Both the position numbers and the translations under genes were made by a program. Positions 18,045 to 23,710 of a stretch of 33,967 nt of DNA are shown here, piece by piece. How positions within the stretch are numbered: position 1 is the first letter of the stretch; every line of letters starts with the position of its first letter. The notes under the pieces were generated by a model, which was not told the origin of the DNA, searched no databases, and worked only from the letters and a program-made list of their open reading frames with translations. Source of the stretch: an uncultured Gammaproteobacteria bacterium (GTDB taxonomy: Bacteria > Pseudomonadota > Gammaproteobacteria > CAKMZV01); NCBI GenBank assembly GCA_929200535.1, contig CAKMZV010000023.1:1-33967 (forward strand), in the 5' to 3' direction.

Positions 18045-18092
18045 ACCATGTCGTACTGAGTTTACCTTAGTATGACATGGTTTCAGTTTTTT
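18045..18092 (+). terminator. Intrinsic terminator after sodB
   Basis: ACCATGTCGTACT (18045-18057) pairs with AGTATGACATGGT (18069-18081), with one non-Watson-Crick position, and is closed by an 11-base loop. A T-rich tract follows (18087-18092). It lies 54 bases after the sodB stop codon. Confidence 0.75.
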
Positions 18093-18216
18093 GCAAAAAA
18101 AATCTAACAAATGGAAAAGTGTTGGGGTGAGTGGGCTATGCTAAGAACTGATGTTATATGGGGTGATTGATTGAGAGTGTGCGGTATGTGTATAAAAATG
18201 TCGTATAATGACTATT

Positions 18217-18681
18217 ATGAGCGATAAAGATATGAGCGATAAAGAAAATTATAAAGTAACCATTGACAATGAGAAAATCATTGATATTTTGTTGCACTCT
18301 GCAACGCAGGAGGATATATCTAAGTTAGATGGGAAAATCATTAAGTTAGATGACCGAATAACGAGATTAGATGAAAAATTCGATGATAAATTTACGAAAA
18401 TAGATGACCGAATAACGAGATTAGATGAAAAATTCGATAATCAGATTGCTAAGTTAGATGACAGAATTATAAGATTAGATGAAAAATTCGATGATAAATT
18501 TATGAAAATAGATGACAGAATTATAAGATTAGATGAAAAATTCGATGATAAATTTATGAAAATAGATGACCGAATTATAAAATTGACTGATAAGGTTGAT
18601 TCTAATTTGCGTTGGATGATTGCAACGATGGTTGCTTTATCTGTAGCGATTATAGGTGCTATGAGCCATTTTTCTGGGTAG
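18217..18681 (+). CDS. Coiled-coil protein with 18-residue repeats and C-terminal membrane anchor
   Basis: I do not recognise a named family. The protein has about 154 residues. After a short charged start it consists of four tandem 18-residue units (DDRITRLDEKFDDKFTKI type, DNA 18349-18564) plus a partial fifth. A hydrophobic helix (WMIATMVALSVAIIGAM) and a four-residue tail follow. It is probably a tail-anchored helical rod facing the cytoplasm. Starts at 18208, 18217 and 18232 are all in frame. The last two are preceded by the same repeated phrase ATGAGCGATAAAGA, and none has a good ribosome site. TATAAT at 18204-18209 overlaps the first ATG. If it is a promoter, the later starts are used. 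Confidence 0.7.
   Translation: MSDKDMSDKENYKVTIDNEKIIDILLHSATQEDISKLDGKIIKLDDRITRLDEKFDDKFTKIDDRITRLDEKFDNQIAKLDDRIIRLDEKFDDKFMKIDDRIIRLDEKFDDKFMKIDDRIIKLTDKVDSNLRWMIATMVALSVAIIGAMSHFSG
18349..18564 (+). repeat. Four 54-bp tandem repeats inside the coiled-coil gene
   Basis: The units start at 18349, 18403, 18457 and 18511, each beginning GATGACMGAAT. Units 3 and 4 are identical over all 54 bases as I read them, which suggests recent duplication. Unit 2 differs in its second half (AATCAGATTGCTAAG). A partial unit starts at 18565. Confidence 0.9.
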
Positions 18682-18732
18682 TTGGTTTTAGAAGACTGTT
18701 TTTTTTTAAATATTAAATTTTGGAGTGTTGTT

Positions 18733-19338
18733 ATGTTAAGTAATTCATTTTTGAGAATATTGTTTATTGGGAGTCTTATGGGCTTTCTATTTGCTTGTGG
18801 AGGCGGTAAAAAAGAAGATAACAAGGTAGCTCAGGCTGTAGCAGATTGCGTGTTCCCAAATACAAATACTCCAGCTCCAGGTTGGATTTGTGATGAGCCT
18901 ATTCCAGGTTTAGAGCTGCAAGCAGTTGGAGTTGCGGAATATTCTGCTGCTGGCTTAAGTTATATGAAAGATTTAGCGGCGGCTGATGCACGTGGAAAAA
19001 TTGTGGAGCAATTTAAAGTGCGCGTGGATAAGATGGTAAAAAGTTATGTTGGTACCACTGGTGTGGGTGATTCAGAAACCGTGGATCGTGCTGCTGAAAG
19101 TGTGCTGAAAACGGTATCTTCAGAAACTTTAGTTGGGAGTAAAATCTATAAATCACGTACTGGACCGGATAAGCGTTTATATGTTGTTGTTGGCGTAGAT
19201 CCAAAGAATTTTGAAAAGGCAGCTGAACAATCTGCACGTACCAGTATGAATAATGAGAATGCACTTTGGCAGCAATTTAAAGCCAAACAAGGTTTTGATG
19301 AAATGGCAAAGGAAATTGCTAAGCAGAAAGTGCAGTAA
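18733..19338 (+). CDS. LPP20-like lipoprotein
   Basis: The predicted 201-residue lipoprotein has a signal peptide ending in the lipobox L19-F20-A21-C22 (GFLFACGGGKK), so it should be lipidated at Cys22 and exported. The mature part matches the layout of the LPP20 family. GLELQAVGVAEYSAAGLSYM is followed by ADARGKIVEQFKVRV and SETLVGSKIYK, then RLYVVVGVDP. The role of that family in most bacteria is not known. I place the start at the ATG at 18733, which has a GGAG site 7 bases upstream. A longer frame from 18682 would bury the signal peptide. Asp/Lys after Cys22 is absent (Gly-Gly), so outer-membrane sorting is plausible but inferred. Confidence 0.75.
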   Translation: MLSNSFLRILFIGSLMGFLFACGGGKKEDNKVAQAVADCVFPNTNTPAPGWICDEPIPGLELQAVGVAEYSAAGLSYMKDLAAADARGKIVEQFKVRVDKMVKSYVGTTGVGDSETVDRAAESVLKTVSSETLVGSKIYKSRTGPDKRLYVVVGVDPKNFEKAAEQSARTSMNNENALWQQFKAKQGFDEMAKEIAKQKVQ

Positions 19339-19343
19339 TTTTT

Positions 19344-19838
19344 GTGCGTTTTATTGATGTTCAAATAAGCATTATTAAAAAGCCAGCAATTTTGCTGGCT
19401 TTTGTTTTTTTATGGGGTGTTATTTCTTCTTGCAGTAATAATCAACCACTAAAGCAAAGTATAAATTGTGTAGAAACCACTCAAGGGCATTCTACTAAAC
19501 CCCCTTGTTGGCTTTTGCATCATCCTTCTGAGTATATTAAGGTAGGAGGGAGTAAGCATTTGGGTTCAAATGGTTGGCTTAAGGCAAAACAACAATTACT
19601 TAAAGAGGCAATGTTAGAAATAGCGACCAGACGTTACGGCGAGGAAGTTGCTATTAAAACGTTGGTAGTTAAGGAAGTTAAGGATAATACCCAAGAAGGT
19701 GTTTCAGCAAAAACTCGCACTGTGCGTGAAGCTCAATTTAATACGGGGGATCAGGCAATTAAGGTGAAGGCATCGGTAAAAGATTATTATTACGATGTAA
19801 ATATTGATAAGGTTTGGATATTGGTTAAGGAAGAATGA
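19344..19838 (+). CDS. Small lipoprotein, possibly LPP20-related
   Basis: The 164-residue protein has a hydrophobic signal (PAILLAFVFLWGVISSC) ending in a lipobox with Cys30, then a mature domain with KPPCWLLHHPSEYIKVGGS, an Ala/Glu/Lys-rich helix and a C-terminal KVWILVKEE strand. The order (Pro-Pro-x-Trp, glycine-rich turn, helix, strand) resembles the upstream LPP20-like protein, but I cannot assign a family. The only workable start upstream of the signal peptide is GTG at 19344, without a ribosome site. A terminator-shaped hairpin (19377-19411) lies inside codons 12-23. It overlaps recC by 4 bases. Confidence 0.6.
   Translation: MRFIDVQISIIKKPAILLAFVFLWGVISSCSNNQPLKQSINCVETTQGHSTKPPCWLLHHPSEYIKVGGSKHLGSNGWLKAKQQLLKEAMLEIATRRYGEEVAIKTLVVKEVKDNTQEGVSAKTRTVREAQFNTGDQAIKVKASVKDYYYDVNIDKVWILVKEE
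19377..19411 (+). terminator. Terminator-shaped hairpin within the second lipoprotein gene
   Basis: AAAAAGCCAGCA pairs with TGCTGGCTTTT across a four-base loop, followed by GTTTTTTT. It has every feature of an intrinsic terminator and sits 39 bases after the stop codon of the LPP20-like gene, where a terminator would be expected. It also encodes the start of the next protein's signal peptide. It may attenuate transcription into the second lipoprotein gene and recC. Confidence 0.65.
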
Positions 19839-22800
19839 CTTTAAAAGTCATAGAATCTAATCGTATAGAAACTCTGTTTTCAGCTTTAACCTCAAGATTA
19901 AAGCAGAATAAACAAGGTATTTTACATCCTCATCAAATGGTGATTACTTGCTTTGGAGTAGAGCAATGGTTGCTTAAAACCTTGACTAATGAGTTCGGCG
20001 TATTCATCAATGGAAAATTTGATTTTCCAATCAACTTTGTTCATAAATTAGGGAAGATTCTAACTCTTGATAGTGATGATTTTTATCACAGCAAGGTGTT
20101 GAGCTTTCGCTTATTTTCATTGCTACATCACAGCGATATCCGGCAACAAATTGCTACTATTGCCCCGCAGTTTTTTACTTATTTATATTGTGATAATCCC
20201 TCACTAAGTGAACAAAGATTATTACAAACTTCTAACATACTTTCTAATATATTTGATGAATATCAATGGCAACGTCCTGAATGGTTGGAGTGTTGGCAAG
20301 ATAACAAAATAGTTAAGCTACCTCCATTCCTTAAATCCACACAGTCTATTCAAGCATTATTATGGCGTGCCTTATTGGCACAAGAGCATCCTAAGAATGA
20401 TTTTTTGCAACGTCATCAGCTTGTTAAAAAAATAATTAATGCTTTAGCACAAGAGGTAAAAGATATTAAGGGGGTACAACAGACGTTTCAGAATGGCATA
20501 AGCGTTTTTGCAGTACTACCTCTTATGCCTCCTATTTGGCAAATTTTTCAAGCCTTGGGGAAACGGGTTGAAGTTGATTTTTATTTTCTTAACCCCTCGA
20601 TGGAATTATGGGGAGAAAACTTGTATTTACCTTTGTGGGAAGAGAAAGCTAAGGAAATGCACACGCAACAAAGCATTGAAGATGATGGCTTATTTTATCA
20701 ACATCATCCATTATTAATGTCTTTAGGTCAGGTTGGGGCAGAGTGCCAAAAGCAGATTTTAGATGCAGTAGATATACAGATTGATAGTTGCTTTACTGAG
20801 ACAAATGAAAGAGATAATCTTAATTTGCTTGAAGCACTTCAACGTAATATTTTATATGATATTCCACAAGCCGAAACCTCCCCTTTGGTGATTGGTGGTG
20901 AAGATACTTCTTTGCAAGTACATTGCTTTCCAAATGGGCAGTCTGAACTCAAATTTTTGCATAATCAAATTTTGCTTTGGTTACAACAAGATGAGAGTAG
21001 AACACTGAGTGATATTTTAGTAGTCGCTCCAAATCTTGAGATTTATCAAGAGTGGATTCCGATTATTTTTTCAGATATTCCACATTCATCTTATGCAGTA
21101 AAAAGTAATGATTCCCTATATGAGGCATTTGATTTTTTATTGCAGTTATTTACTGATGAAAAACCGTTAGGAATGGATGAACTAAGGTATTTTTTTGCTT
21201 TTTCATGTGTGCAAGAAAAATTAAAAAATCAAGTTTCTTTAGAGCAAATTGAAGAGTTTTTGAATTCTTTGTATTGTCTTGGTTTTCGATGGGGGATAAA
21301 TGATTTACAGAGGGAAAAACAGGGTTTTGAAAGTGGCTTGTCTTTGCAAGGAGCATTGGACTTGATGTCGGTTGAGATGTGTTCTAAAGAAACGATAGCT
21401 TTAGTTGATTGGGCAAGTTGTATGAGCTTGCAAGAATATTTAAAGCAATTAATTAATGCATACCAAAAAATTCATCATCCTAATCAAAGCGTACCAAAAA
21501 ATATCGCTTCTTGGATTGAGTATTTAATTTCTTGGATAGATGTTTTTTTCATTAATGATGAAAGAAGTGCCACCTATCAACAGCAGAGCGAAGGGCTGAT
21601 TACACGGTTGCGGAAAATAGAGAATGATTCTGTTTTTGCAGATTCTCAAGAACTTTTTTCTATTTCATCAATGCGTTCTATTTGGCGTTCATATCAATCA
21701 CAAAATATTCATCAGAGTAACTATCTGTCGGGTAAGTTGATGTTTTCTCAACTACTTGATGTGCGTTGTGTGCCATGTAAATTTATTGCTATTATTGGTT
21801 TAGATGAGAATTATAATCGTCGTAATAGCGAGCATTCAATGGATTTAACTTGGCATCTTCCAAAACCGTATGATCGCTCTGCTGAGGCAAATAACAACTA
21901 TTATATTTTGGAATATATTCAATCCGCAAGAGAAAAACTATGGTTAAGCTATAGTGCGGATGCCAATCAGCATTTAAGCAACTCAGCAAACTCCTTAAAT
22001 GCGATTATTGAATATATTCAACGTAATAGGGCAGGGCATTCGGTTGGAGAATTTCTTTTTGAACATAGTGATAGTTATATTCTTAGCGAAGCTACTCCGC
22101 CGTTGGAAAACTCTTTACCGCTGCAAGAAGATATAGGAATATTACCAGATAAACACGTGAAGGATTTGTCTCAAAGTCATTTGCTATTATCTTGTTCGCA
22201 GCTTGCTGCTAAACTTATAGACCCTATTAAAACCTTTATAATCTCTTCAGGTGGGCAAGTAGTGAAACAATCACCTATCGATAATCGCTATGAGGATAGT
22301 AGGCTGGACCCATTAAATCGTGCAGATTGGCGAGTGAAAATATTATCATCACTACTCACTGAGAGCGAACAAGAATTTCAAAATACAAGGCAGATTTTAA
22401 TTGCTGAATTAGCACAAGATAATCGTTTTTTATCGGCTGAAATTATTGCTCAAGAATTAAATAAACAATGTAAAAAAATTCAAACAGATATTGAAAAAGG
22501 TGCTCTTATTAACTCTTCTTTACAAGCACCTAAAAAACCGTTTATTTATCGAACTAAATATGAAAATCAACAATATACTCTATCTTCGCAACCTCGTTTA
22601 GTAGGAGAAACAGAGGATGGGGTAATACAAGTGTTTATCTCTGGAGGCAAGCAAAATTTACAGAAATTATTGCAAGCGTGGCTTGGGCATACGCTATGTA
22701 ATACACAACAAAAAACTTCAACCTACTATTTATGCTTTAAACAATCTTCTGATAGCTTTACTATTATCGAACAATCGATGCCTACGATCGCCCCTCAACA

Positions 22801-23074
22801 AGCAAAGCAAAAAATAAACGCTCTAATTGAGCTTTATTTTGAAGTGCAGAAGAAGTGCGTTTGGGCACCACCCAATATGACTTTTTGTATGGCAAATGCC
22901 AGTGATTTGCAACAAGAAATCAAGGAAATAAAAAAAACTTTCTATGAATTGGATGAGAAATCAGAATGGTTATCCTTACTTAACGACTATCGTTTATACG
23001 ATCTCTCAGAGGGTGAAAAGACTTGGGAAGATAGCCGCACCTATGCCTCTAATCTGTGGGGGGGCAATAGGTGA
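19835..23074 (+). CDS. recC: Exodeoxyribonuclease V gamma subunit RecC
   Basis: RecC is the scaffold and Chi-recognition subunit of the RecBCD helicase-nuclease that processes double-strand ends for recombination. The protein has 1079 residues (E. coli RecC about 1120). It has a typical N-terminus (VIESNRIETLFSALTSRL, CFGVEQWLLKTL) and an inactive helicase-like core with VHCFPNGQSELKFLHNQIL and PCKFIAIIGLDENYNRR. Its C-terminal nuclease-like fold lacks an obvious catalytic set. It starts inside the stop codon of the preceding lipoprotein gene (ATGA overlap). recB and recD, usually adjacent, are not in this window. Confidence 0.9.
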   Translation: MTLKVIESNRIETLFSALTSRLKQNKQGILHPHQMVITCFGVEQWLLKTLTNEFGVFINGKFDFPINFVHKLGKILTLDSDDFYHSKVLSFRLFSLLHHSDIRQQIATIAPQFFTYLYCDNPSLSEQRLLQTSNILSNIFDEYQWQRPEWLECWQDNKIVKLPPFLKSTQSIQALLWRALLAQEHPKNDFLQRHQLVKKIINALAQEVKDIKGVQQTFQNGISVFAVLPLMPPIWQIFQALGKRVEVDFYFLNPSMELWGENLYLPLWEEKAKEMHTQQSIEDDGLFYQHHPLLMSLGQVGAECQKQILDAVDIQIDSCFTETNERDNLNLLEALQRNILYDIPQAETSPLVIGGEDTSLQVHCFPNGQSELKFLHNQILLWLQQDESRTLSDILVVAPNLEIYQEWIPIIFSDIPHSSYAVKSNDSLYEAFDFLLQLFTDEKPLGMDELRYFFAFSCVQEKLKNQVSLEQIEEFLNSLYCLGFRWGINDLQREKQGFESGLSLQGALDLMSVEMCSKETIALVDWASCMSLQEYLKQLINAYQKIHHPNQSVPKNIASWIEYLISWIDVFFINDERSATYQQQSEGLITRLRKIENDSVFADSQELFSISSMRSIWRSYQSQNIHQSNYLSGKLMFSQLLDVRCVPCKFIAIIGLDENYNRRNSEHSMDLTWHLPKPYDRSAEANNNYYILEYIQSAREKLWLSYSADANQHLSNSANSLNAIIEYIQRNRAGHSVGEFLFEHSDSYILSEATPPLENSLPLQEDIGILPDKHVKDLSQSHLLLSCSQLAAKLIDPIKTFIISSGGQVVKQSPIDNRYEDSRLDPLNRADWRVKILSSLLTESEQEFQNTRQILIAELAQDNRFLSAEIIAQELNKQCKKIQTDIEKGALINSSLQAPKKPFIYRTKYENQQYTLSSQPRLVGETEDGVIQVFISGGKQNLQKLLQAWLGHTLCNTQQKTSTYYLCFKQSSDSFTIIEQSMPTIAPQQAKQKINALIELYFEVQKKCVWAPPNMTFCMANASDLQQEIKEIKKTFYELDEKSEWLSLLNDYRLYDLSEGEKTWEDSRTYASNLWGGNR

Positions 23075-23107: not shown

Positions 23108-23710
23108 ATGAATAAACCACTTTCATTGGAAAATAATTCAAGCTCTACAGAGGGAGAGTGTGGCAGTGGCTATGCTAACGAGCATGAAGTTTGGAAAAAC
23201 TTTAATCAAAACCAAATCACTCACTCCATCGCCCATTATTTAATGGCAATTGACGAAGCATCTGAAGGGAGTGAATATGGATGTAAGGCTGTCAATGTTT
23301 CGCGTATTCTTGGAGTCAGTCGCAATGCAGTATCGTTACAGCTTAAAACTCTTCAACAGCATGAATTTATCCATCTTTCGGGCAATAAATTGATTGCCCT
23401 TACTGAAAGAGGCAAGACCGTTGTAAATAATGTTGTGGCAGCACGACGCTCAGTTAAGCGTTTTTTAGTTCAATTTTTAGGAGTTACAGAGGAACTTGCA
23501 GAACAAGACAGCTGTAAAGTTGAACACCTAATTTCGCAAGAAACACGTAATGGTTTAGCTAAATTGATACAATTTGTTGGTGATCAACCAGCATTAGCAA
23601 CACCTTTTATTGAAGCATTAAATAATTATCAAGTGCATTGTGAAGAAGACAGCCAGCATCATTGTCCTCTTTGCCAGCATGGTTGCTTATTGAAAGATAA
23701 TATTTCATAA
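23108..23710 (+). CDS. DtxR/MntR-like metal-dependent regulator
   Basis: This is a predicted 200-residue DNA-binding regulator. Residues 35-100 form a winged helix (VSRILGVSRNAVSLQLKTLQQ as recognition region, LIALTERGKTVV as wing), followed by a DtxR-type dimerisation segment (RFLVQFLGVTEELAEQDSCKVEHLISQET). CKVEH keeps the Cys-x-x-Glu-His pattern of the primary metal site of DtxR. The usual ancillary-site histidines appear replaced (ARRSVKR). There is no SH3-like domain. Instead the tail carries CEEDSQHHCPLCQHGC, a Cys/His cluster that could bind metal. It follows recC by 33 bases, probably on the same transcript. Its targets are unknown. Confidence 0.7.
   Translation: MNKPLSLENNSSSTEGECGSGYANEHEVWKNFNQNQITHSIAHYLMAIDEASEGSEYGCKAVNVSRILGVSRNAVSLQLKTLQQHEFIHLSGNKLIALTERGKTVVNNVVAARRSVKRFLVQFLGVTEELAEQDSCKVEHLISQETRNGLAKLIQFVGDQPALATPFIEALNNYQVHCEEDSQHHCPLCQHGCLLKDNIS

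Follow-up and report, generated by a model that had tools for sequence, protein, structure and literature searches.

A terminator-shaped hairpin that overlaps the predicted signal-peptide code of a lipoprotein gene upstream of recC

The window analyzed here, a stretch of 33,967 nucleotides from an uncultured Gammaproteobacteria bacterium (contig CAKMZV010000023.1), contains a hairpin with the shape of an intrinsic terminator that is located downstream of an LPP20-like lipoprotein gene and, at the same time, encodes part of the predicted signal peptide of the next gene, a second putative lipoprotein followed by recC. On balance, the hairpin probably serves as an intrinsic terminator for the LPP20-like gene and, through leakage, as an attenuator of the two genes that follow, those for the second lipoprotein and RecC.

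The hairpin and its coding context

The relevant features, all on the + strand, are as follows.

18733–19338, + strand: LPP20-family lipoprotein gene, 201 aa (Pfam LPP20, PF02169, 30.7 bits, cut-off 25.9)
19344–19838, + strand: second lipoprotein gene, 164 aa, divergent member of a family found beside LPP20-like genes
19344–19346, + strand: GTG start codon, the first ATG, GTG or TTG of the ORF, 5 nt past the upstream stop
19377–19430, + strand: signal-peptide core KKPAILLAFVFLWGVISS, from the translation
19378–19403, + strand: terminator-shaped hairpin with a perfect 11-bp stem and a 4-nt loop
19392–19394, + strand: TTG inside the hairpin; apart from the GTG, no further standard start is in frame ahead of the lipobox
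19404–19411, + strand: G at 19404, then seven Ts (19405–19411), approximately where transcripts are predicted to end
19431–19433, + strand: lipobox Cys codon, from the translation
19835–23074, + strand: recC-like gene, 1079 aa (Pfam Exonuc_V_gamma, 170 bits)

The arms of the hairpin, AAAAGCCAGCA and TGCTGGCTTTT, are separated by the loop ATTT and form 11 pairs, 5 of which are G-C, with the stem core GCCAGCA/TGCTGGC; the stem is located directly 5′ of GTTTTTTTAT. This combination of a G-C-rich stem, a short loop and an adjacent T-tract is the shape of an intrinsic (Rho-independent) terminator. The predicted RNA fold of the hairpin has an energy of -16.7 kcal/mol (z -4.2), which is not equaled by any of 200 shuffles. 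The G-C core remains paired at 0.99-1.0 in all 7 longer contexts that were folded, and the outer A-U pairs are weaker across these seven contexts, down to 0.08 at the lowest. The site is unique in the genome when up to 3 mismatches are allowed in a search of both strands. A computed terminator score was not relied upon, as it came to 35 when only the G-C core was considered and to -5 with the A-T-extended stem.

The last base of the LPP20-like stop codon is 19338, which leaves 39 nt ahead of the stem and puts the start of the hairpin at +40; the stem alone corresponds to codons 12–20, and the stem together with the T-tract to codons 12–23, of the ORF 19344–19838. Both the sequence and the fold bear out the placement of the hairpin in the first-pass annotation, 39 nt past the LPP20-like gene and within codons 12–23 of the next lipoprotein ORF. 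The LPP20-like protein has homologues in other Gammaproteobacteria, and its start codon is preceded by a Shine-Dalgarno match (GGAG).

The second lipoprotein ORF shows no Pfam or NCBIfam match at E values up to 1 and, when used as a single query, retrieves no match from the genome contigs, viral contigs or 93 other genomes. A profile built from 8 relatives, with the window protein left out, gives it a score of 57.2 bits and an E value of 2.1e-16 (Z=2000). The alignment with these eight family members shows 16–24% identity and places the lipobox Cys (codon 30) in register with theirs; the 164-codon frame is intact, and the Cys, a Pro-x-Trp motif and a late Asp are conserved. The profile match, the lipobox Cys and the gene position support the assignment of this predicted protein to the family encoded beside LPP20-like genes.

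The recC-like protein scores 265 bits against TIGR01450, under the cut-off of 583; the best recB-like match is encoded elsewhere in the genome (G000:C13) and is also under the family cut-off. The lipoprotein frame had been thought to continue into recC, but it stops at 19838, and recC starts with the ATG at 19835 in a different frame, with a 4-nt ATGA overlap and an upstream Shine-Dalgarno match, AGGA. A search of 140 loci, many with short flanks, for RecC beside the second lipoprotein yields matches in loci of the own genome only. An MntR/DtxR-like regulator gene (23108–23710) begins 33 nt past recC and is possibly part of the same transcript.

The start codon and the signal peptide

The GTG at 19344 is the sole standard start codon 5′ of the hairpin, 34 nt ahead of it, and the Shine-Dalgarno motif scan finds no match either at this codon or at the TTG at 19392. 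Translation from the GTG gives the predicted lipoprotein signal KKPAILLAFVFLWGVISSC, in which the A-rich arm and the T-tract encode Lys-Lys followed by a hydrophobic run that leads to a putative lipobox before the Cys at 19431–19433. A very unlikely alternative is that the lipoprotein is translated from the TTG, or from a non-standard codon, of a message whose 5′ end is inside the stem and on which the hairpin therefore never forms. TTG is the first start in 28 of the 214 long ORFs identified by a crude caller in the genome sample, and a transcript initiated inside the left arm would presumably escape termination; however, a TTG start would drop both lysines and leave no basic n-region, apart from the missing Shine-Dalgarno motif. 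Furthermore, a lipoprotein requires a hydrophobic region immediately ahead of the lipobox cysteine, which here is the part encoded by the T-tract and the right arm; the overlap therefore stands even if GTG 19344 is not the start. Thus, the hairpin encodes part of the predicted signal peptide whichever standard start is used.

Recoding test and genome scan

Synonymous resampling of the first 40 codons, with codon weights from a 434-kb sample of the same genome, produced only 6 of 20,000 sequences that combined a T-tract with a stem of ≥10 bp and ≥5 G-C pairs; any terminator shape was present in 135 of 20,000. A crude scan of both strands of this sample (433,967 bases, that is, the window and 20 stretches of the same genome), in which both the ORF caller and the terminator search are simple, identifies 24 terminator-like hairpins: 11 are intergenic or at gene edges, 6 are within ORFs of the opposite strand, and the rest are in same-strand ORFs, 2 in the middle, 2 near the end and 3 in the first 100 nt. 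One of these three early-ORF hairpins is that at 19378–19403; the two others have poorer T-tracts, and one of them is in a gene that, judging by eye, is presumably spoT-like.

These observations bear on the possibility that the hairpin is a coding accident that does not terminate transcription, which we regard as the least likely of the alternatives and extremely improbable. The occurrence of the two weaker early-ORF hairpins in the 434-kb sample shows that such structures do arise within genes, but the synonymous null (6 of 20,000), the longer T-run compared with both of them, and a position that matches the terminators of 34 of 78 relatives (see below) all speak against an accident.

A more general idea, that terminators are read as signal peptides, was also considered: 6 of the 24 hairpins passed a crude test compared with 134 of 2000 random windows. 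Two of the 6 represent the two strands of the present hairpin, and without them the count becomes 4 of 22, which is too weak for a claim.

Terminator shapes downstream of LPP20-like genes in relatives

The first set of loci consisted of the best 80 of 149 loci with an LPP20-like relative, 78 of which had a stop codon and enough 3′ sequence. A terminator shape is present within +1 to +120 past the LPP20-like stop in 34 of these 78 loci, not all of which are independent (L075, L076 and L081; L071 and L080). The first base of the hairpin ranges from +9 to +67, with a median of 21.5, and the other 44 loci lack a terminator by the criteria used. The same test is negative for all 78 windows taken from within the gene and positive for 2 of 390 shuffles. 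These findings fit a terminator of the LPP20-like gene that is kept by place and shape rather than by sequence. A second set, some members of which are genomes already included in the first, speaks against this: the same scan finds a terminator in 2 of 12 loci (G085 and G203) and none in the other 10.

In 28 of the 34 terminator-bearing loci, a forward gene that encodes ≥110 aa starts within 330 nt, and the N-terminus of most of these products is hydrophobic. Starts were chosen roughly in the relatives (with a later start, L033 would exceed 50 nt), and, by this choice, the distance from the hairpin to the start is <50 nt for 18 of the 28 genes and only 16 nt for three. A start this close leaves little or no room for a promoter that lies wholly between it and the hairpin. 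Thus, the next genes of many relatives are probably expressed by terminator read-through or from a promoter ahead of the terminator.

In 9 loci of relatives, a gene of the second lipoprotein family is located 3′ of the LPP20-like gene; eight of these supplied the profile described above, and a terminator separates the two genes in 3 of the 9 (L013, L015 and L022). For example, a Hydrogenovibrio locus (L015) encodes the same two families, with a terminator at +26 to +53 and the second gene starting 28 nt past it. An alignment search for the second family finds matches in 13 of 273 other genomes, some of which are LPP20-like or longer proteins; the true members, from 7 genomes, show no terminator shape from -150 to +130 of the first start. 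In the terminator-bearing relatives the terminator is intergenic, whereas the GTG of the second gene in the window precedes the hairpin by 34 nt. The idea that related genomes might keep both the hairpin and the frame found no counterpart: the overlap of the hairpin with the second lipoprotein code occurs in no other examined locus, and a single genome carries it.

In the three near-identical loci among the 34 (L075, L076 and L081), a long frame also crosses the hairpin, but an ATG with GAGG, 16 nt past the hairpin, is the likelier start. Another ATG directly follows the terminator T-tract in these loci (from ~5073), and the next gene encodes an exported-looking protein of ~500 aa with a motif, FQQW/YEQW, that is common to many other loci.

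With respect to the order of events, the terminator may have preceded the coding overlap, as suggested by comparison with relatives that are all distant; for close relatives, the taxonomic order is covered by the own genome only. The presence of a terminator in only 2 of the 12 loci of the second set weakens the case that the terminator came first, and its presence between the two families in 3 of 9 loci implies that a terminator at this exact gene pair may not be ancestral. The proposal that the same DNA is both a 3′ terminator and signal-peptide code thus gains from the place and shape of the terminators in 34 of 78 relatives and from the signal code that is retained with either start, and loses from the second set.

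Proposed termination, read-through and expression of recC

Under the preferred reading, most polymerases would stop at about 19405–19411 and yield the upstream, LPP20-like mRNA, whereas the fraction that passes the hairpin would produce the second lipoprotein and RecC at a low level. Any message for the second lipoprotein that includes GTG 19344 would have to cross the terminator. Terminated messages would lack a stop codon for this frame, and the weak start codon may limit the cost of such non-stop messages, which would fit the absence of a Shine-Dalgarno match.

Published measurements on tR2 in Escherichia coli provide a frame of reference. Termination is maximal when tR2 lies >27 nt past a stop codon, with an efficiency of 0.9 in the authors' model, and a terminator 30 bp past an AUG loses only ~10% of its efficiency when translated; upstream expression in the latter construct is about half, which the authors link to non-stop mRNA (PMC4824070). 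With a modelled maximum of 0.9, some leak is normal; given these distance data and the local distances of 39 and 34 nt, termination is expected as the default, with a small leak.

The same data bear on the suggestion that ribosomes on the nascent message aid read-through, which is not favored here. In its specific form, translation of the second ORF, coupled to the stop 5 nt upstream, opens the hairpin, so that brisk translation results in more read-through; this we consider highly improbable. The 5-nt stop-to-start distance is within the range, under 25 nt, reported as optimal for coupling (PMC7538156), and the lack of a Shine-Dalgarno match for independent initiation is compatible with it. 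However, the missing match at the GTG also counts against help from ribosomes, the nearest published construct lost only ~10% of termination when translated (PMC4824070), and the main route of coupling in E. coli has been argued to be something other than reinitiation (PMC7538156).

An unlikely alternative, although the least improbable of those considered, is that the terminator works but a separate promoter inside the lipoprotein gene drives recC, with the lipoprotein produced in very small amounts or in the process of being lost. The strong divergence of the lipoprotein from the eight family members (16–24%) and the contrast between its GTG without a Shine-Dalgarno match and the AGGA ahead of recC are compatible with this scenario. 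Conversely, the intact 164-codon frame, the conserved lipobox Cys, Pro-x-Trp and late Asp, and the ATGA overlap of the lipoprotein stop with recC speak against it. A promoter scan finds no + strand match of at least 9/12 in 18584–20159, and hence none within the gene, which also counts against a separate recC promoter, but the scan performs at chance level overall (14 matches compared with 15.0 expected), so that the absence of a match carries little weight. In the preferred reading, recC would depend on the leak past the terminator.

A more far-reaching version of the preferred reading is that, once the intergenic gap had collapsed, the terminator was recruited as protein code and that both functions are now under selection; the messages for RecC and the lipoprotein would all escape the terminator, and terminated messages that are translated would be subject to non-stop rescue. 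The A-rich arm would then supply the basic part, and the T-tract the hydrophobic part, of a working lipoprotein signal peptide. We consider this version tentative and somewhat doubtful.

Relation to known systems and implications

The type of control considered here, a terminator that acts as an attenuator, is already known, and the overlap with the downstream signal peptide makes the present case a variant of it. The frd/ampC hairpin reportedly lies in an untranslated leader. The hairpin in the window does not belong to this frd/ampC and nlpD1/penA type with respect to location: its stem is in codons 12–20 of an ORF with the Cys at codon 30. In the nlpD1 - TERM 264 - penA locus of Burkholderia pseudomallei, the terminator of an upstream lipoprotein gene likewise serves as an attenuator of a cotranscribed gene, but that hairpin is in the untranslated leader, 25–73 nt before the start codon, rather than within signal-peptide codons (PMC6045580). 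The E. coli frd terminator, as summarized in the same report, is the ampC attenuator, so that there, too, the terminator of an upstream operon attenuates a downstream gene; unlike recC in the preferred reading, ampC is served by a promoter of its own within the upstream gene (PMC6045580). The brfA gene of Bacillus subtilis, which has been likened to arfA of E. coli, carries a working intrinsic terminator inside the coding sequence that gives rise to non-stop mRNA; this terminator, located close to the 3′ end of the ORF, regulates the very protein that the ORF encodes via ribosome rescue (PMC6881298), whereas the hairpin described here is in the 5′-terminal part of the second gene. The closest arrangement is that in the tR2 construct W48, where an intrinsic terminator is located 30 bp past a start codon and, likewise, downstream of another gene; this is an engineered construct, in which the terminator keeps most of its efficiency (PMC4824070). 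Among the top-ranked results from the openly licensed literature, we found no account of a terminator that overlaps a downstream signal peptide.

If the preferred reading is correct, ~34 bases would carry two independent codes, one for a transcription stop and one for a secretion signal, and a 3′ regulatory element would have been turned into protein code as the genome tightened. RecC, a subunit of a major repair enzyme, would be dosed by the leak past the terminator of a neighboring gene. Many relatives have a terminator 16–50 nt ahead of the next gene, which suggests that dosing by leak-through may be widespread at this envelope locus, about which little is known.

Other features of the region

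Several additional features were noticed in the vicinity. The 9-mer TGCTGGCTT occurs both at 18948–18956, in a stretch of the LPP20-like gene that encodes a conserved Ser-Ala-Ala-Gly, and at 19393–19401, in the right arm of the hairpin. An antiterminator formed by pairing of the 18948 copy of TGCTGGCTT with the left arm was rejected as a switch because the core stays paired at 0.99-1.0 in the predicted folds of the seven contexts. A peptide-leader attenuator of the trp/phe kind was rejected as well: no rival fold appears in these contexts, and the ORF is a full gene. An Rfam scan at E values up to 1 gives seven matches, every one under the gathering score, and those to Trp_leader and Phe_leader are on the opposite strand.

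A small ORF (18208–18681) located 5′ of the LPP20-like gene encodes a coiled-coil-like protein with near-repeats, e.g., DDRIIRLDEKFDDKFMKI, and a C-terminal hydrophobic segment. Farther upstream, at 18045–18081, a 16-pair hairpin with a T-rich tail follows the superoxide dismutase gene and is probably the terminator of that gene.
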